Shown here: positions 12,009-32,616 of the stretch, piece after piece
Layout: each line of letters opens with the position of its first letter
Numbering within the stretch: the first letter of the stretch is position 1
Assembly (NCBI GenBank): GCA_903911435.1
Contig: CAIWDF010000311.1
Location: 1 to 32,616 of the forward strand
Origin: an uncultured Bacteroidota bacterium
GTDB lineage: Bacteria; Bacteroidota; Bacteroidia; 2-12-FULL-35-15
Direction of reading: 5' to 3'
Length of the DNA stretch: 32,616 bases
Position numbers and translations under genes: made by a program
Notes under the pieces: model-generated
The model's input: only the letters and a program-made list of their open reading frames with translations
What the model was told of the DNA's origin: nothing
Database searches by the model: none

Positions 12009-12286
12009 AATGATTTAGTTGATAATTGCTGGTAGTTAGTTATTGGTTGTTAGGGAAGTAAATAGCGAATAGGCAATAGGTGGGGGATTTTAATCCACAA
12101 GTGTAAGCATGCGTTGCAAACGAAGGATTCAAACTCCAATGTTCTAAATAAGATTATTGGGGTATTGTGATTTAATGTATTGGTACTAATAGCTGTTTAT
12201 TAAGTTGTTGCGTTGTGTTAATTGCTTTATCTGTTTATATAAAATACTTGACTTACGGAATGTTTTTGTTAAGGCTTTTCGATGCA
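12009..12286. other. Gene-free stretch before the 21-bp array
   Basis: No gene, tRNA or clear regulatory site could be supported in 12009-12259. It contains a GTTAGTT/GTTGTTAG-like G/T-rich tract at about 12014-12056, similar in flavour to tracts at 11065-11080 and (complement) 12688-12703, and a small dyad GGATT-TT-AATCC at about 12086-12097. Bases 12260-12286 may encode the start of a repeat-containing peptide. Confidence 0.4.
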
Positions 12287-12559
12287 GTTGAACGTTCAAC
12301 TGACTTAGTTGAGGTGACTATCGACCTAGTTGAGCTTTCAACCAACTTAGTTGAGCTTTCAACTGACTTAGTTGAACTCTCTACCGACCTAGTTGAGCTT
12401 TCAACCGTTTCAGTTGAACTGTCAACTGATTTAGTTGAGCTTTCAACTGACTCAGTTGAGGTGACTATCGACCTAGTTGAGCTTTCAACTAACTTGGTAG
12501 AAGTGTCTACCGAAACGCTCGAAAATTCGCAACTTACTACAGAGGACAAGAATTTTTAA
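12260..12559 (+). CDS. Possible heptad-repeat peptide encoded by the 21-bp array
   Basis: An ATG at 12260 (or a GTG at 12215) opens a frame that reads through the whole array and encodes about eleven copies of a seven-residue unit, typically VELSTDL, ending TEDKNF. Unit-to-unit changes fall mostly on third codon positions (by hand about 22 of 36), and units 5 and 7 differ from consensus by five and three bases with no amino acid change. That is what selection on a protein would produce. However, one antisense frame is also fully open (SVESSTK repeats) and shares the same third positions, so the strand cannot be decided. There is no clear promoter or ribosome site. Treat as unproven. Confidence 0.3.
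   Translation: MFLLRLFDAVERSTDLVEVTIDLVELSTNLVELSTDLVELSTDLVELSTVSVELSTDLVELSTDSVEVTIDLVELSTNLVEVSTETLENSQLTTEDKNF
12287..12517. repeat. Tandem array of eleven 21-bp dyad units
   Basis: Eleven contiguous units of exactly 21 bp, starting at 12287, 12308, 12329 and so on to 12497. Consensus is GTTGAGCTTTCAAC followed by TGACTTA. In most units GTTGA and TCAAC form a 5-bp stem with a 4-base loop; the same arm can also pair with the next unit across 7 bases. In the last unit both arms change together (GTAGA with TCTAC), keeping the stem. Units 2 and 9 are identical to each other and differ from the rest, hinting at a 147-bp (7-unit) duplication. A degenerate twelfth unit follows. The array lies upstream of pirin and downstream of mnmA. 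Confidence 0.9.
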
Positions 12560-12700: not shown

Positions 12701-13798
12701 CTAAAAAACGTGTCGTTCGATAATACCACCACCTACAAGGTCGTCACCTTCGTAAAAAACAGCCGACTGACCGGGAGCTATGGCCGAAACCGATTTATGA
12801 AACAATACATTTAGTTTATCATTGCTATTGGTGATGGAGGCAAGGGTACCTGGGTCTTTGTATCTAATTTTGGTAAGCAGTTCGATGCCATCGGGCAAGG
12901 AGGCGTACTTTATCAAATTGTATTTGCCCACTTTCATTTGTTGTTGTTCCAAATCTTCTTTGAAACCCAATACCACCGAGTTGGTTTCGGGAATAATTTC
13001 GAGTACATATTGAGGTTCGCCAACCGCTATTTCCAAGCCTTTGCGCTGACCGATGGTGTAAAACGGATAGCCATGGTGCTTGCCCAATACCTTGCCTGTT
13101 TTATCAATAAAATTTCCACCATCCACACGGGTTTCTAGTCCATCCACTTTTCGTTTCAAGAATCCACGGTAATCGTTGTCGGGCACAAAACAGATTTCAT
13201 AGCTCTCGCTTTTGGCTGCCAAGTCGGCATAACCATTGTTTTTAGCCATTTCTTTTATTTCCGATTTACGAAAATTCTGCAGCGGAAACAAGGTGCGTTT
13301 AAGGCTTTCTTGCGACAGTCCCCAGAGCACATAACTTTGGTCTTTGGTGGTATCAATACCTCGCGAAATGACGTATCTATTGTTTTCTTGGCGGATGCGT
13401 GCATAATGTCCGGTGGCAATAAATTCGCAATCGAGCATGTCGGCACGTTTCAACAAAGCATCCCATTTGATATGCGTATTGCAAAGCACACAAGGGTTTG
13501 GCGTACGACCAGCAAGGTATTCGTCCACAAAATTGTCGATGATGTAATTGCCAAATTCGTTGCGTATGTCGAGTATAAAATGCGGAAAACCGAGGTTAAC
13601 AGCAAGCAATCGTGCATCGTTTATGGAGTCGAGGCTGCAGCAACCTGTTTCTTTGCTCGAACCTCCTGAGGTGGCATAATCCCATGTTTTCATGGTAATA
13701 CCCACCACTTCGTATCCTTGTTCGTGAAGCAAGAGGGCAGCAATGGAACTATCAATACCACCACTCATGGCCAATAAAACTTTCCCTTTTTTACTCAT
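12701..13798 (-). CDS. mnmA: tRNA-specific 2-thiouridylase
   Basis: A 365-residue cytoplasmic enzyme that puts sulfur on C2 of U34 in tRNAs for Lys, Glu and Gln, using ATP and sulfur passed from a cysteine desulfurase. The PP-loop SGGIDSS is at residues 12-18. The catalytic cysteines are C103 in NPCVLC and C203 in SYEICF. GHYARI and YTIGQRKGL are further family motifs, and the C-terminal barrel ends GQSAVFYEGDDLVGGGII. Full length and intact. Its start overlaps the upstream MORN-protein stop by 4 bp (ATGA), so the two are co-transcribed. A possible sulfur donor, the cysteine desulfurase at 22104-23231, lies 9 kb away. Confidence 0.96.
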   Translation of the reverse strand: MSKKGKVLLAMSGGIDSSIAALLLHEQGYEVVGITMKTWDYATSGGSSKETGCCSLDSINDARLLAVNLGFPHFILDIRNEFGNYIIDNFVDEYLAGRTPNPCVLCNTHIKWDALLKRADMLDCEFIATGHYARIRQENNRYVISRGIDTTKDQSYVLWGLSQESLKRTLFPLQNFRKSEIKEMAKNNGYADLAAKSESYEICFVPDNDYRGFLKRKVDGLETRVDGGNFIDKTGKVLGKHHGYPFYTIGQRKGLEIAVGEPQYVLEIIPETNSVVLGFKEDLEQQQMKVGKYNLIKYASLPDGIELLTKIRYKDPGTLASITNSNDKLNVLFHKSVSAIAPGQSAVFYEGDDLVGGGIIERHVF

Positions 13799-14574
13799 TC
13801 TTGTGGTTCTTTAAAAGGGTCTTTTATTTCTGAATTTTCGTATTTCTTTTTTGCTTTTTCTAATTCTGCTTGTGGGATTACATCCTTATCAGGCTCTGTG
13901 TTTCGGCCGTAGATGTATTTGTCAACTCGTTTCACTTTACCATTTTCTTCATAATATTTCCATTCTCCTTCTTTCAAATCGGCCACATACATGCCTTCGG
14001 CTTCTATCTTTCCAGTAGAATAATAATAAGTAGTTTTTCCTTCCACCTTGTCGTCAATCACATGTCCGTAGTATTTCAGTTGTCCGTTTTCGAAATACTT
14101 TTTCACCTCACCATTTAGTTTTCCATTCGCCCATGTTTTTTCTTCTGCCAGCTCGCCACTTGCATAAAACACATGAAACTTGCCGTTTTTAAGTCCATTG
14201 ACATAGTTTTCGTCCGAAATAACTTTACCATCAATATTGTAAAACTTCCAAATGCTATCTCTTTTTTGGTTCACATACTTTCCTTCACCCGACAGCTTTC
14301 CACCACTATCGTAAAGCTGAGCCCTCGATACCGTGCCGTTTTGCGAAAACAGGTTGATGGCTTTCAGCAACCCTGTTTCGTAATAATAAGTAAACTTGCC
14401 CACCGGAATGTCGTCAACAAAATTCCCATCGTAAATCTTCTTTTTGTTTTCATCGTATTTTATCCAATGCCCTTGTTTCTTGCCGTTTTCATCCAATTTG
14501 TTGGGTGCATCTTGTGCTTTGGCAAGGTGAGTAATCAATAAAAAACTAATAATAATGCAGGTAATTCTATTCAT
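13795..14574 (-). CDS. Exported MORN-repeat (YwqK-like) protein
   Basis: A 259-residue protein with a signal peptide (hydrophobic residues 3-18, then AKAQ) and then about eight MORN-type repeats of about 22 residues, each of the pattern G-x-W/F-x-Y-Y-x-x-G-x-x-x (GHWIKYDENKK, GKFTYYYETG, GEVKKYFENG, GEWKYYEENG). Such proteins are often called antitoxin YwqK-like in databases; no toxin is seen here and the signal peptide argues against that role. The C-terminus is charged (EKAKKKYENSEIKDPFKEP). It overlaps mnmA by 4 bp, a pairing that is probably just an operon of convenience. Function unknown. Confidence 0.75.
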   Translation of the reverse strand: MNRITCIIISFLLITHLAKAQDAPNKLDENGKKQGHWIKYDENKKKIYDGNFVDDIPVGKFTYYYETGLLKAINLFSQNGTVSRAQLYDSGGKLSGEGKYVNQKRDSIWKFYNIDGKVISDENYVNGLKNGKFHVFYASGELAEEKTWANGKLNGEVKKYFENGQLKYYGHVIDDKVEGKTTYYYSTGKIEAEGMYVADLKEGEWKYYEENGKVKRVDKYIYGRNTEPDKDVIPQAELEKAKKKYENSEIKDPFKEPQE

Positions 14575-20302: not shown

Positions 20303-21520
20303 ATGAGTTCAGTACTTAATACCATAGAAGAAGCTATTGCCGATTTAAAAGCCGGAAAAATAATCATTGTTGTGGATGACGAAGACCGCGAGAACGAAGG
20401 CGATTTCATCACCACGGCTACCAACGTTACCCCCGAAATCATTAATTTCATGGCCACTCACGGTCGTGGATTGATTTGCGCTGCCATCACTCAAGAACGA
20501 TGTGCACAATTGGGCCTCGAAATGATGGTGACGAACAACACTGCCGAACACCAAACGGCCTTTACCGTTTCGGTGGATTTACTTGGTTATGGATGCACCA
20601 CCGGAATCTCTGCTTCTGACCGTGCTAAAACCATTCAAGCTCTTATCAATCCTACTATCAAACCCGAAGAACTTGGGCGACCTGGACATATATTTCCGCT
20701 GAAAGCTAAAAACGGTGGCGTGCTCCGCAGAGCTGGCCATACCGAAGCCACCATCGATTTGGCGCGCTTAGCTGGTGTTTATCCTGCTGGTGCTTTGGTC
20801 GAAATAATGAATGACGATGGCTCCATGGCTCGCTTGCCACAGCTCCTCGAAATAGCAAAAAAACACAACCTCAAGATTATTTCTATCGAAGACTTAATCG
20901 CATACCGAATAAAAAACGAAACCATCATCACCAAAGACGTTCGCGTTAAAATGCCGACTCAATGGGGCGATTTCGAACTAGTAGCCTATCACGAAACCAC
21001 AACAGGGCAAGAACACTTGGCGCTTGTTAAGGGCGAATGGCAACCCAACGAACCCGTTCTTGTTCGTGTTCACTCTTCTTGCCTCACTGGCGATATCTTT
21101 GGCTCTTGCCGTTGCGACTGTGGACCTCAATTACACAAATCAATGGAGATGATTGAAAAGGAAGGAAAAGGTGTCATCGTGTACATGAATCAAGAAGGCC
21201 GTGGCATTGGTCTGCTCAACAAATTAAAAGCATATAAACTTCAAGAACAAGGCCGCGACACCGTGGAAGCCAACGAAGACTTAGGTTTCAAAATGGACGA
21301 ACGCGACTATGGAGTGGGAGCACAGATACTTCGCGATTTAGGACTTAGCAAAATAAAACTGCTAAGCAACAATCCCAAAAAACGTGCAGGACTCATTGGC
21401 TATGGCCTCGAAATAATCGAAAATATTGCCATCGAAATAAAATCGAACGAACACAACCAATTTTATCTCCAAACAAAAAGAGATAAAATGGGGCATTCCC
21501 TTAAATTAGATAAGGAATAA
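20303..21520 (+). CDS. ribBA: Bifunctional DHBP synthase / GTP cyclohydrolase II
   Basis: A 405-residue riboflavin-synthesis enzyme with two fused domains. Residues 1-200 are 3,4-dihydroxy-2-butanone 4-phosphate synthase, with the acidic loop [11 protein letters not shown], the substrate motif [17 protein letters not shown] and the conserved GRGLICAA. Residues 205-400 are GTP cyclohydrolase II with the zinc-binding cysteines in [20 protein letters not shown], the [10 protein letters not shown] loop and [11 protein letters not shown]. Both active sites look complete, so both steps feeding riboflavin are probably carried out. It is a single gene with its own promoter and a strong terminator; other rib genes are not in the window. 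Confidence 0.97.
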
Positions 21521-21565
21521 GGATAAGAAACATTAAGAGTTCCTAATATTGTAAAGAATCCATAA

Positions 21566-21597
21566 ATCCTGCTCTTAAACGGAGCAGGATTTTTTTT
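21566..21597 (+). terminator. Terminator of ribBA
   Basis: ATCCTGCTC (21566-21574) and GAGCAGGAT (21582-21590) form a perfect 9-bp stem with a 7-base loop, followed by seven T. Confidence 0.9.
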
Positions 21598-21636
21598 ATT
21601 CATTTTCAATTGATTTACATCCAAACTTCGACATGA

Positions 21637-21985
21637 TAAGGATTCAACACCTCGTGGGAACTTCCCAGATGACCTTGTAAGAAAACAACCTAGACTGGGA
21701 ACTTCCCACGCGACCTTGTAAGGATGCAACGCCTCGTGGGAACTTCCCAGATGACCTTGTAAGAAAACATCCTAGGCTGGGAACTTCCCAGACGACCTTG
21801 TAAGTATGCAACGCCTCGTGGGAACCTCCCAGACGACCTTGTAAGAAAACATCCTTGTCTGGGAACTTCCCAGATGACCTTGTAAGGAAACATCCTAGGC
21901 TGGGAAGTTCCCACGAGGTATTGAAGGGTGTCACTACCCCGTGGGAACTTCCCACGAGCCATTGCATGTACCCACTACCTCGTGA
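21637..21985. repeat. Tandem array of 41-bp dyad units, alternating in an 82-bp pattern
   Basis: Eight full units start every 41 bp at 21637, 21678, 21719, 21760, 21801, 21842, 21883 and 21924, with a partial ninth from 21965. The core of each is TGGGAACTTCCCA, a 6+1+6 dyad (unit 5 has one mismatch; unit 7 has G at the centre). Units 1, 3, 5 share a GATGCAACGCCTCG-type left half and units 2, 4, 6 an AAAACATCCTAGGC-type left half. Unit joins make a second small dyad CCTT-GT-AAGG. Outer arms near the core vary between CGTGGG and GCTGGG. 41 is not a multiple of three, so the long open frames across it are not coding. It sits between convergent ribBA and the desulfurase gene. Confidence 0.93.
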
Positions 21986-22012
21986 AACAATGGCTTTTTT
22001 AGTCGAAAAAAG

Positions 22013-22052
22013 AAATGTTCCACGAAAACTTGCGTTTTGCGGAACATTTTTT
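22013..22052. terminator. Bidirectional terminator after the cysteine desulfurase gene
   Basis: AAATGTTCC (22013-22021) pairs with GGAACATTT (22041-22049); an inner AAAAC/GTTTT stem continues it. T-runs flank it on the plus side and A/T-rich sequence on the minus side. It closes the 41-bp array on one side and the desulfurase transcript on the other. Confidence 0.75.
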
Positions 22053-22103
22053 AACAATTCACCAAAATACTAATAGAAAACAGGAAACCTAAACCATCAA
22101 TAA

Positions 22104-23231
22104 TTATTTGCTGTACATTTCCTTTAATTTGCTCACCGTATAATCCACCTCTTCCTTCGTATTGTATTTACTAAACGAAAACCGCACCGAAGGTTGATTC
22201 ATCTCCACACCCAAAGCCTGCAACACATGCGAGCCCTTATCACTTCCACTCGTACAAGCACTTCCTCCCGAAGCAGCTATACCAGCTATATCCAAACTAA
22301 ACAAAAACATTTCTGCAGTATCCGTCTTCGGAAACCGTACACTCAGCACCGTATATAAATTATTCTCCAAACACGAACCATTAAATTCCACTCCCGGTAT
22401 GGCAGCCCGCAATTCGTCTACCATATATTGTTTCAGCCCGCTTATTTTCTCCCTCACCTCGTCCATGTCGCGCATCGCTATCTCCAAAGCCTTCGCCAAA
22501 CCTATGATGCCATACAAATTTTCAGTTCCACCCCTCATGTTTCGCTCCTGCGAACCACCGTGTATAAACGGTTGAATCTTTACATCGCCATTTATATAGA
22601 TAAAACCCACACCCTTCGGCCCATGAAACTTATGAGCAGCACAATTTATAAAATGAACCTTCGTCCGTTGCAAATCCAAAGCATAATGCCCTACCGTTTG
22701 CACCGTATCCGAATGAAAAACGGCATCATATTGTGCACAAAGCTCACTCACTTCCTTCATCGGAAGCAAATTCCCAATCTCATTATTCGCATGCATCAAC
22801 GATACCAGCGAACGCACATTCCCCTTCAACAATTCTTCCAAATGATTCAAGTCGATATGCCCATTCTTTGTCAAATTCACAAAACTTAGCTTTATCAACC
22901 CTTCCTCTTCCAACACCTCCAACGTATGCAACACCGCATGATGCTCAATGCGCGAAGTAATAGCATGTTTTATTCCCAAATCATGAACACTACAGCGAAT
23001 CGCCATATTATTAGCCTCCGTTCCTCCCGAAGTAAAAAACAATTCCGAAGGCGAAACGTTCAATAGCTTAGCCACCGATTTGCGTGCCATTTCTATTGCC
23101 GACCGAGTCTTCCGTCCATAAGCATGTATCGATGATGGATTACCGAAATGCTCAGTCATGTAGGGCAACATGGCATCAAGCACCTCTTTGTCTAATGGAG
23201 TAGTAGCAGCGTTGTCTAAGTATACATTCAT
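22104..23231 (-). CDS. Cysteine desulfurase (NifS/IscS family)
   Basis: A 375-residue PLP enzyme that takes sulfur from cysteine as an enzyme-bound persulfide for Fe-S clusters or tRNA thiolation. It opens YLDNAATTPLD, has SGGTEANNMAI, HADTVQT-type HSDTVQTVGH, and the PLP-lysine block NCAAHKFHGPKGVG. The catalytic cysteine is in SGGSACTSGS, near residue 320, with the long loop of class I (IscS/NifS) enzymes. No iscU, iscA or fdx lies next to it. It could supply the sulfur used by MnmA in this window. Full length, no oddities. Confidence 0.93.
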   Translation of the reverse strand: MNVYLDNAATTPLDKEVLDAMLPYMTEHFGNPSSIHAYGRKTRSAIEMARKSVAKLLNVSPSELFFTSGGTEANNMAIRCSVHDLGIKHAITSRIEHHAVLHTLEVLEEEGLIKLSFVNLTKNGHIDLNHLEELLKGNVRSLVSLMHANNEIGNLLPMKEVSELCAQYDAVFHSDTVQTVGHYALDLQRTKVHFINCAAHKFHGPKGVGFIYINGDVKIQPFIHGGSQERNMRGGTENLYGIIGLAKALEIAMRDMDEVREKISGLKQYMVDELRAAIPGVEFNGSCLENNLYTVLSVRFPKTDTAEMFLFSLDIAGIAASGGSACTSGSDKGSHVLQALGVEMNQPSVRFSFSKYNTKEEVDYTVSKLKEMYSK

Positions 23232-30476: not shown

Positions 30477-30539
30477 CAAAAGTAACTATATTTGCTAACC
30501 AAAAGTAAGTACTTACTTATAGTATAGTACTATACTTTG
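30477..30539. promoter_or_regulatory. Twin palindromic operator and divergent promoters of hxlR and yceI
   Basis: Two perfect 16-bp palindromes stand two bases apart: AAGTAAGTACTTACTT (30503-30518) and AGTATAGTACTATACT (30521-30536). Their centres are 18 bp apart. On the minus strand TACTTTTG (30484-30477) is a perfect -7 element toward yceI. On the plus strand TATACTTTG (30531-30539) is a near -7 match toward hxlR and overlaps the second palindrome, so binding there would repress hxlR itself. Confidence 0.65.
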
Positions 30540-30565
30540 GTATAGAACCATTAAATTAGTATGAC

Positions 30566-32375: not shown

Positions 32376-32455
32376 TTAATTTATAAGCTAGAACTTGTTG
32401 TGGTTTGTTAGCAATTTATTTCGATGCCTCGATGATTTGTGTATTAAAGGAGGCT

Positions 32456-32616
32456 CGGCAGTAATTCGTCTCCGTTCGGCAGTAAGTGATGTCCGTTCGG
32501 TAGTAAGTGATGTCCGTTTGGTAGTAAGTGACGTCCGTTCGGTAGTAAGTGACGTCCGTTCGGTAGTAAGTGACGTCCGTTCGGTAGTAAGTGACGTCCG
32601 TTCGGTAGTAAGTGAC
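32456..32616. repeat. Tandem array of 21-bp units running off the window end
   Basis: Seven full units of 21 bp begin at 32456, 32477, 32498, 32519, 32540, 32561 and 32582, with 14 bases of an eighth at the edge. Consensus is CGGTAGTAAGTGAC followed by GTCCGTT. The first unit is the most divergent and units 5-7 are identical, so the array is more uniform inward. Each join makes CCG-TT-CGG, a tiny dyad kept as CCG-TT-TGG (G-T pair) at one place, and each later unit has the palindrome GACGTC. One plus-strand frame (VVSDVRS repeats) and all three minus frames are open; coding is not shown. True length is unknown. Confidence 0.9.

Follow-up and report, generated by a model that had tools for sequence, protein, structure and literature searches.

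A 41-bp dyad array beside ribBA belongs to a genome-wide class of non-coding 21n-bp arrays in a Bacteroidota lineage

Results

Structure of the array between ribBA and a cysteine desulfurase gene

We analysed a stretch of 32,616 nucleotides from an uncultured Bacteroidota bacterium (contig CAIWDF010000311.1 of assembly GCA_903911435.1; hereafter, the window), the features of which are listed in Table 1. The ribBA gene and a cysteine desulfurase gene are convergent in the window, and a tandem array with a 41-bp period, the ribBA array, lies between their two terminators. This position had been proposed in the original prediction, which was made from the sequence alone; the ribBA terminator is supported, and the opposite hairpin with its T-runs fits. 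Because the array is flanked by two terminators, it is probably little transcribed. There is no gene downstream of it, and Rfam gave nothing above the gathering score for it.

Table 1 Features of the window discussed in this study
Feature	Position	Strand	Remarks
Second class array	12280..12513	.	21/42 bp; GTTGAACTTTCAAC-type dyads (GTTGAAC-type); downstream of mnmA, upstream of pirin gene
ribBA	20303..21520	+	DHBP synthase / GTP cyclohydrolase II
Intrinsic terminator of ribBA	21564..21592	+	
Tandem array, 41-bp period	21629..21984	.	8 core units and degenerate edge; 82-bp higher-order repeat, units 1-6
Core dyad 1	21655..21667	.	TGGGAACTTCCCA
Core dyad 2	21696..21708	.	
Core dyad 3	21737..21749	.	
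Core dyad 4	21778..21790	.	
Core dyad 5	21819..21831	.	One arm mismatch (TGGGAACCTCCCA)
Core dyad 6	21860..21872	.	
Core dyad 7	21901..21913	.	Inverted central base (TGGGAAGTTCCCA)
Core dyad 8	21942..21954	.	
Clearest midpoint dyad	21901..21954	.	24-bp arms 21901-21924 / 21931-21954; axis 21927.5, midway between cores 7 and 8
Hairpin, T-runs on both strands	22010..22052	-	Likely terminator of cysteine desulfurase gene; RNA fold of 22005-22056
Class-V aminotransferase	22104..23231	-	Cysteine desulfurase-like (NifS/IscS type)
Third class array	32455..32616	.	21 bp, TCGGTAGTAAGTGACGTCCGT; runs off contig end; adjoins DUF2889 gene

The predicted series of eight near-constant cores was confirmed: the spacing is exactly 41 bp throughout, six cores match the core sequence exactly on the plus strand, and two are one-base variants. 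When up to two mismatches were allowed, 17 core matches were observed in the whole window versus 0.69 in shuffles. The left flanks are of two types that follow the order A, B, A, B, A, B from unit 1 to unit 6; the alternation, which had been claimed for the whole array, is broken in units 7 and 8. Tandem Repeats Finder (TRF) gave a match of 92% at a period of 82 bp versus 77% at 41 bp. Since the flanks alternate over units 1-6, the 82-bp block is the amplified unit, as had been supposed. The array is also non-coding as proposed, 41 bp being indivisible by three. It is not a CRISPR array, as its "spacers" themselves repeat with the 82-bp period.

Furthermore, a second, weaker dyad lies midway in each unit, so that symmetry axes occur every 20.5 bp. 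Complementarity was 0.56-0.89 at the core axes and 0.50-0.75 at the midpoints, versus an average of 0.26. With axes at both cores and midpoints, the ribBA array forms a 20.5-bp axis lattice that is readable alike on both strands.

Conservation of the ribBA array

The core was confined to the ribBA array within the 4.19-Mb genome (G000). Among 35 congeners it was not found as an array, and a single match occurred in G021, outside any array. According to the tree, G020 and G021 are sister species; both keep the convergent ribBA/cysteine desulfurase pair, with gaps of 47 and 5 bp, respectively, and both are array-less. The ribBA array is accordingly specific to its lineage. In G032 and G024, which are more distant and also bear arrays, ribBA is followed by other 42-bp arrays and other downstream genes. 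The one in G024 resembles an array preceding a gene of family F3 (described below) in the same genome (70%, E 2.5e-16).

Taken alone, the uniqueness of the ribBA array at the sequence level would fit chance slippage. The original prediction held that a lone occurrence with array-less relatives would point that way; this is what was found for the sequence and not for the class of arrays described next, which extends genome-wide.

A genome-wide class of arrays with a 21n-bp period

The ribBA array is a member of a genome-wide class of non-coding arrays that have nearly all unrelated sequences and a common period of 21/42 bp. We sampled 496 kb of G000, about 12% of its length, and found 27 arrays with a period of about 21n, or 54 per Mb; extrapolation from this sample gives about 230, an estimated couple of hundred arrays in total. 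The density was 64 per Mb in G032, 92 per Mb in G024, and 7 per Mb in G014 (298 kb sampled), and several other sampled congeners had zero arrays of the class. Flanks from other Bacteroidota showed 9 arrays per Mb, many of them coding. Of 70 contig ends, 14 abut an array; breaks in the assembly seem to fall within arrays of this kind.

The autocorrelation of non-coding 7-mers in three species (G000, G032, and G024) peaked only at 21n lags. With N masked, 7-mer recurrence in G000 reached 283 per 10 kb at lag 42 and 196 per 10 kb at lag 21, with a median of 1.9; the peaks at lags 42, 21, 84, 63, 126, and 105 (74-283 per 10 kb) stood about 100-fold over background. Small peaks at lags 82, 41, and 123 in this genome fit the ribBA array.

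A clear register could be assigned to 64 arrays, of which 33 have a period of 42 bp, 27 of 21 bp, three of 41 bp, and one of 43 bp. Only nine similar pairs were found among them, none involving the ribBA array. Two array pairs in G000 have a unit in common; in one case (L048/L157) the two may be parts of one array that was split between contigs. A common 21-bp unit of the CAATGTAAACATGCATTGCAC type (89% identical) was seen at two loci of this genome, L052:497-774 and L148:1-197, one of which is upstream of an F1 gene. Copies within arrays are imperfect (self-match 0.70-0.98). Twelve of the 64 lack an open frame, and with a 21-bp period chance alone should leave frames open. Coding heptad repeats were considered unlikely given the 41- and 43-bp members, the dyad symmetry, and the lack of other multiples of three.

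The window itself contains two further members (Table 1). Orthologous mnmA loci of other species are nearly all without an array. Another repeat in the window, a palindromic 18-bp sequence (AGTATAGTACTATACTTT), occupies a short intergenic region at 30504-30562.

The gaps holding 25 resolved arrays were co-directional in 13 cases, divergent in seven, and convergent in five, compared with 57 convergent gaps among 444 intergenic gaps (p = 0.36). Convergent gaps are thus not enriched, and the convergent position of the ribBA array, previously seen as suiting a protein-binding, supercoil-absorbing or attachment array, is not a property of the class.

Dyad symmetry and constraint

Consensus dyads of at least five pairs were present in 33 of the 64 arrays versus 8.4 +/- 2.7 in shuffles (maximum 17 of 200), about four times chance; the other 31 lack a strong consensus dyad. 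This register-based test replaces one on TRF consensus units, which gave a weak result. Within arrays, the dyad arms were half as variable as the other positions (0.052 vs 0.109), and none of 2000 rotations of the arm mask reached the observed value (p < 0.0005). Moreover, 42-bp arrays have a second symmetry axis exactly 21.0 bp from the first (0.56 vs about 0.26 at all other distances). The DNA helix completes two turns in 21 bp and four in 42 bp; the dyads are therefore spaced by whole helical turns, with axes at 21.0 bp in the class and 20.5 bp in the ribBA array.

Gene families preceded by arrays

Two multicopy gene families are headed by arrays of this class. F1 (about 253 aa, up to 10 copies per genome; L143:4336-5097, minus strand, and L294-L323) has a helical domain followed by an FnIII-like C-terminal domain. 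F3 consists of proteins of about 320 aa (L053:12304-13266, minus strand, and L339-L353), and no convincing fold match for it was obtained in PDB. Neither family matched Pfam or NCBIfam, and PHROGs gave no toxin match either. An array was found just upstream of F1 at 16 of the 18 loci whose upstream sequence was long enough and downstream at two of 25, and just upstream of F3 at all 14 visible loci, there with a period of 41-43 bp. The background was 23 of 502 genes (4.6%; Fisher test vs F1/F3, p about 1e-17). The F1 arrays nearly always have their own sequence at each locus. Several F3 arrays have in common a hairpin, GCCTATTCC-N6-GGAATAGGC, with changed stems, and F3 arrays at orthologous loci remain recognisable from one species to another (L340/L341). 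Many class arrays, including the ribBA array, have no neighbour from these families.

The promoter motif TAnnTTTG was present in four of 33 spaces between an array and the start of an F1/F3 gene versus 128 of 263 other genes in these species (p = 5e-5); a housekeeping promoter is thus not enriched there, and no motif common to the F1/F3 leaders was clear. At L053, a 42-bp array (13643-13923) lies between an F3 gene and a divergent gene for a protein with PAS and LuxR-type (GerE) domains, a possible regulator and candidate binder.

The species range of a third family, F2, is the same; the few members inspected came from already sampled stretches. F1 and F2 range over the array clade plus the outlier G019, with F1 also weakly in G002, and F3 was found only within the clade. 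Relatives of F1 also occur in other families (G299, G190, and G219), and plasmids and viral contigs gave no F1 match. Shared ancestry within one clade confounds the link between arrays and families, which for the most part goes back to a single evolutionary event and does not amount to independent replicates.

Discussion

The mirror-image sites of many class arrays, and the place of many just upstream of lineage-specific families, suggest DNA-binding platforms of an undescribed type. Specifically, we favour, with about even confidence, the reading that they are face-phased binding lattices acting at the DNA level, the ribBA array being a solitary member without a partner gene. All dyad sites would lie on one face of the helix, and a dimeric or oligomeric protein could occupy the regularly spaced dyads side by side to form a short nucleoprotein platform. 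Upstream of F1 and F3, such a platform might act as a control element or insulator for genes most of which are without the usual promoter motif, and the solitary ribBA array would perhaps be an insulator or a nucleoid-binding block between two terminators. The class statistics favour a DNA-binding array, as originally suggested for this locus; the idea of a conserved attachment or binding sequence is not supported, the core being unique to the ribBA array. Since array sequences differ almost everywhere, a single sequence-specific protein is unfit for this role, and the model requires recognition by shape or a separate partner at each locus.

A fixed helical period and dyad spacing across dozens of mostly unrelated arrays is hard to obtain via one binding specificity or plain slippage. 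Shape- or phase-based recognition, many co-diversified pairs of binder and site, or a two-turn mutational ruler could account for it; each would be new and is testable, and the two array-headed families offer a concrete handle on the class. More tentatively, and as less likely than not, we consider that these loci might together constitute an undescribed chromosomal system of one Bacteroidota clade, in which an estimated couple of hundred loci of private sequence and common 21-bp dyad lattice, upstream of expanded families of unknown proteins, act as locus-specific nucleoprotein platforms that replace ordinary promoter logic.

The main rival is that the arrays are functionless minisatellites, generated by a lineage-specific bias of replication or recombination that duplicates intergenic DNA by two helical turns with the help of palindromes. 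This would account for the private sequences and for lineage-specific gain, as seen in the sister species that keep the gene pair without an array; the 82-bp blocks reveal unit duplication, and every gene orientation hosts arrays. However, neutrality leaves unexplained why dyad arms are constrained and why the arrays of F1 and F3 genes are almost always upstream, and the conservation of orthologous F3 arrays and the recurrence of axes at exactly 21.0 bp also speak against it. We therefore regard neutral origin as unlikely, though deserving serious weight.

A role at the RNA level, in which transcribed hairpin repeats act as antitoxin RNAs like those of type III toxin-antitoxin systems, as attenuators, or as processed small RNAs, seems quite improbable. 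An array 5' of a protein gene does resemble the type III layout, and F3 arrays have strong hairpins. Nevertheless, their folding bias was alike on both strands (mean z -2.00 and -1.99), a pattern that would fit DNA dyads better than RNA hairpins. F1 and F3 gave no family match, whereas type III systems have toxins of the ToxN/CptN/TenpN family, and the ribBA array is terminator-fenced, below the Rfam gathering score, and without a downstream gene.

We give still less credence to a mobile or decayed cassette, under which arrays, with or without an F gene, would move as units and the ribBA array would be left over from an insertion. The empty site in both sister species, the resemblance between the ribBA-adjacent and F3 arrays of G024, and the unit type at two G000 loci would agree with it; against it, nearly every array differs in sequence, F1 is unmatched in plasmids and viral contigs, and inspection of the ribBA array flanks by eye showed neither terminal inverted repeats nor target duplications. 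Finally, the original suggestion of a supercoil-absorbing array, taken as a cruciform block reserved for pairs of convergent genes, would suit the extrudable dyads and the position of the ribBA array, but it is highly improbable because convergent gaps are not enriched among arrays and most resolved arrays lie in divergent or co-directional gaps.

Our search, which covered the open-access literature, gave no array class with a fixed 21n period and dyad symmetry; novelty is to that extent provisional. Phased operator and iteron arrays place their sites at whole helical turns on one face of the DNA, with one protein and one sequence per replicon. The class arrays share the whole-turn spacing of dyads and differ in occupying an estimated couple of hundred loci with differing sequences. 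Borg genomes each contain many intergenic tandem-repeat arrays that are virtually all unique, fast-evolving, and element- or lineage-specific, some with predicted hairpins; their units have varied lengths, perfect copies, and A-rich sequences, and half are in ORFs (PMC9879509). Many unique intergenic arrays within one genome are a common feature. Unlike Borg repeats, however, the class arrays have 21n-bp periods (21, 41, 42, and 43 bp only), imperfect copies, conserved dyad arms, and a GC content above their surroundings, and they lie mostly outside genes on bacterial chromosomes.

Within Bacteroidota, the BrickBuilt minisatellite-MITEs and the 464/PgRS 41-nt repeats of Porphyromonas gingivalis form intergenic arrays of 23 or 41 nt, each with one shared repeat sequence, many copies, and terminal inverted repeats (PMC4596501). 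Host phylum and intergenic location are alike, whereas the class arrays have a private sequence at nearly every locus in place of dispersed copies. The LTRR of heterocystous cyanobacteria (named in PMC2408588) are one family of intergenic tandem repeats with possible palindromic hairpins; both kinds are intergenic with possible palindromes, but the class arrays are nearly all unrelated in sequence and have only period and symmetry in common. The TAACTGA direct repeats of marine Beggiatoaceae are intergenic, upstream of start codons, and absent at the same site in close relatives (PMC4679880). Unlike the class arrays, they consist of one dyad-less 7-bp sequence a few nucleotides from the start codon.
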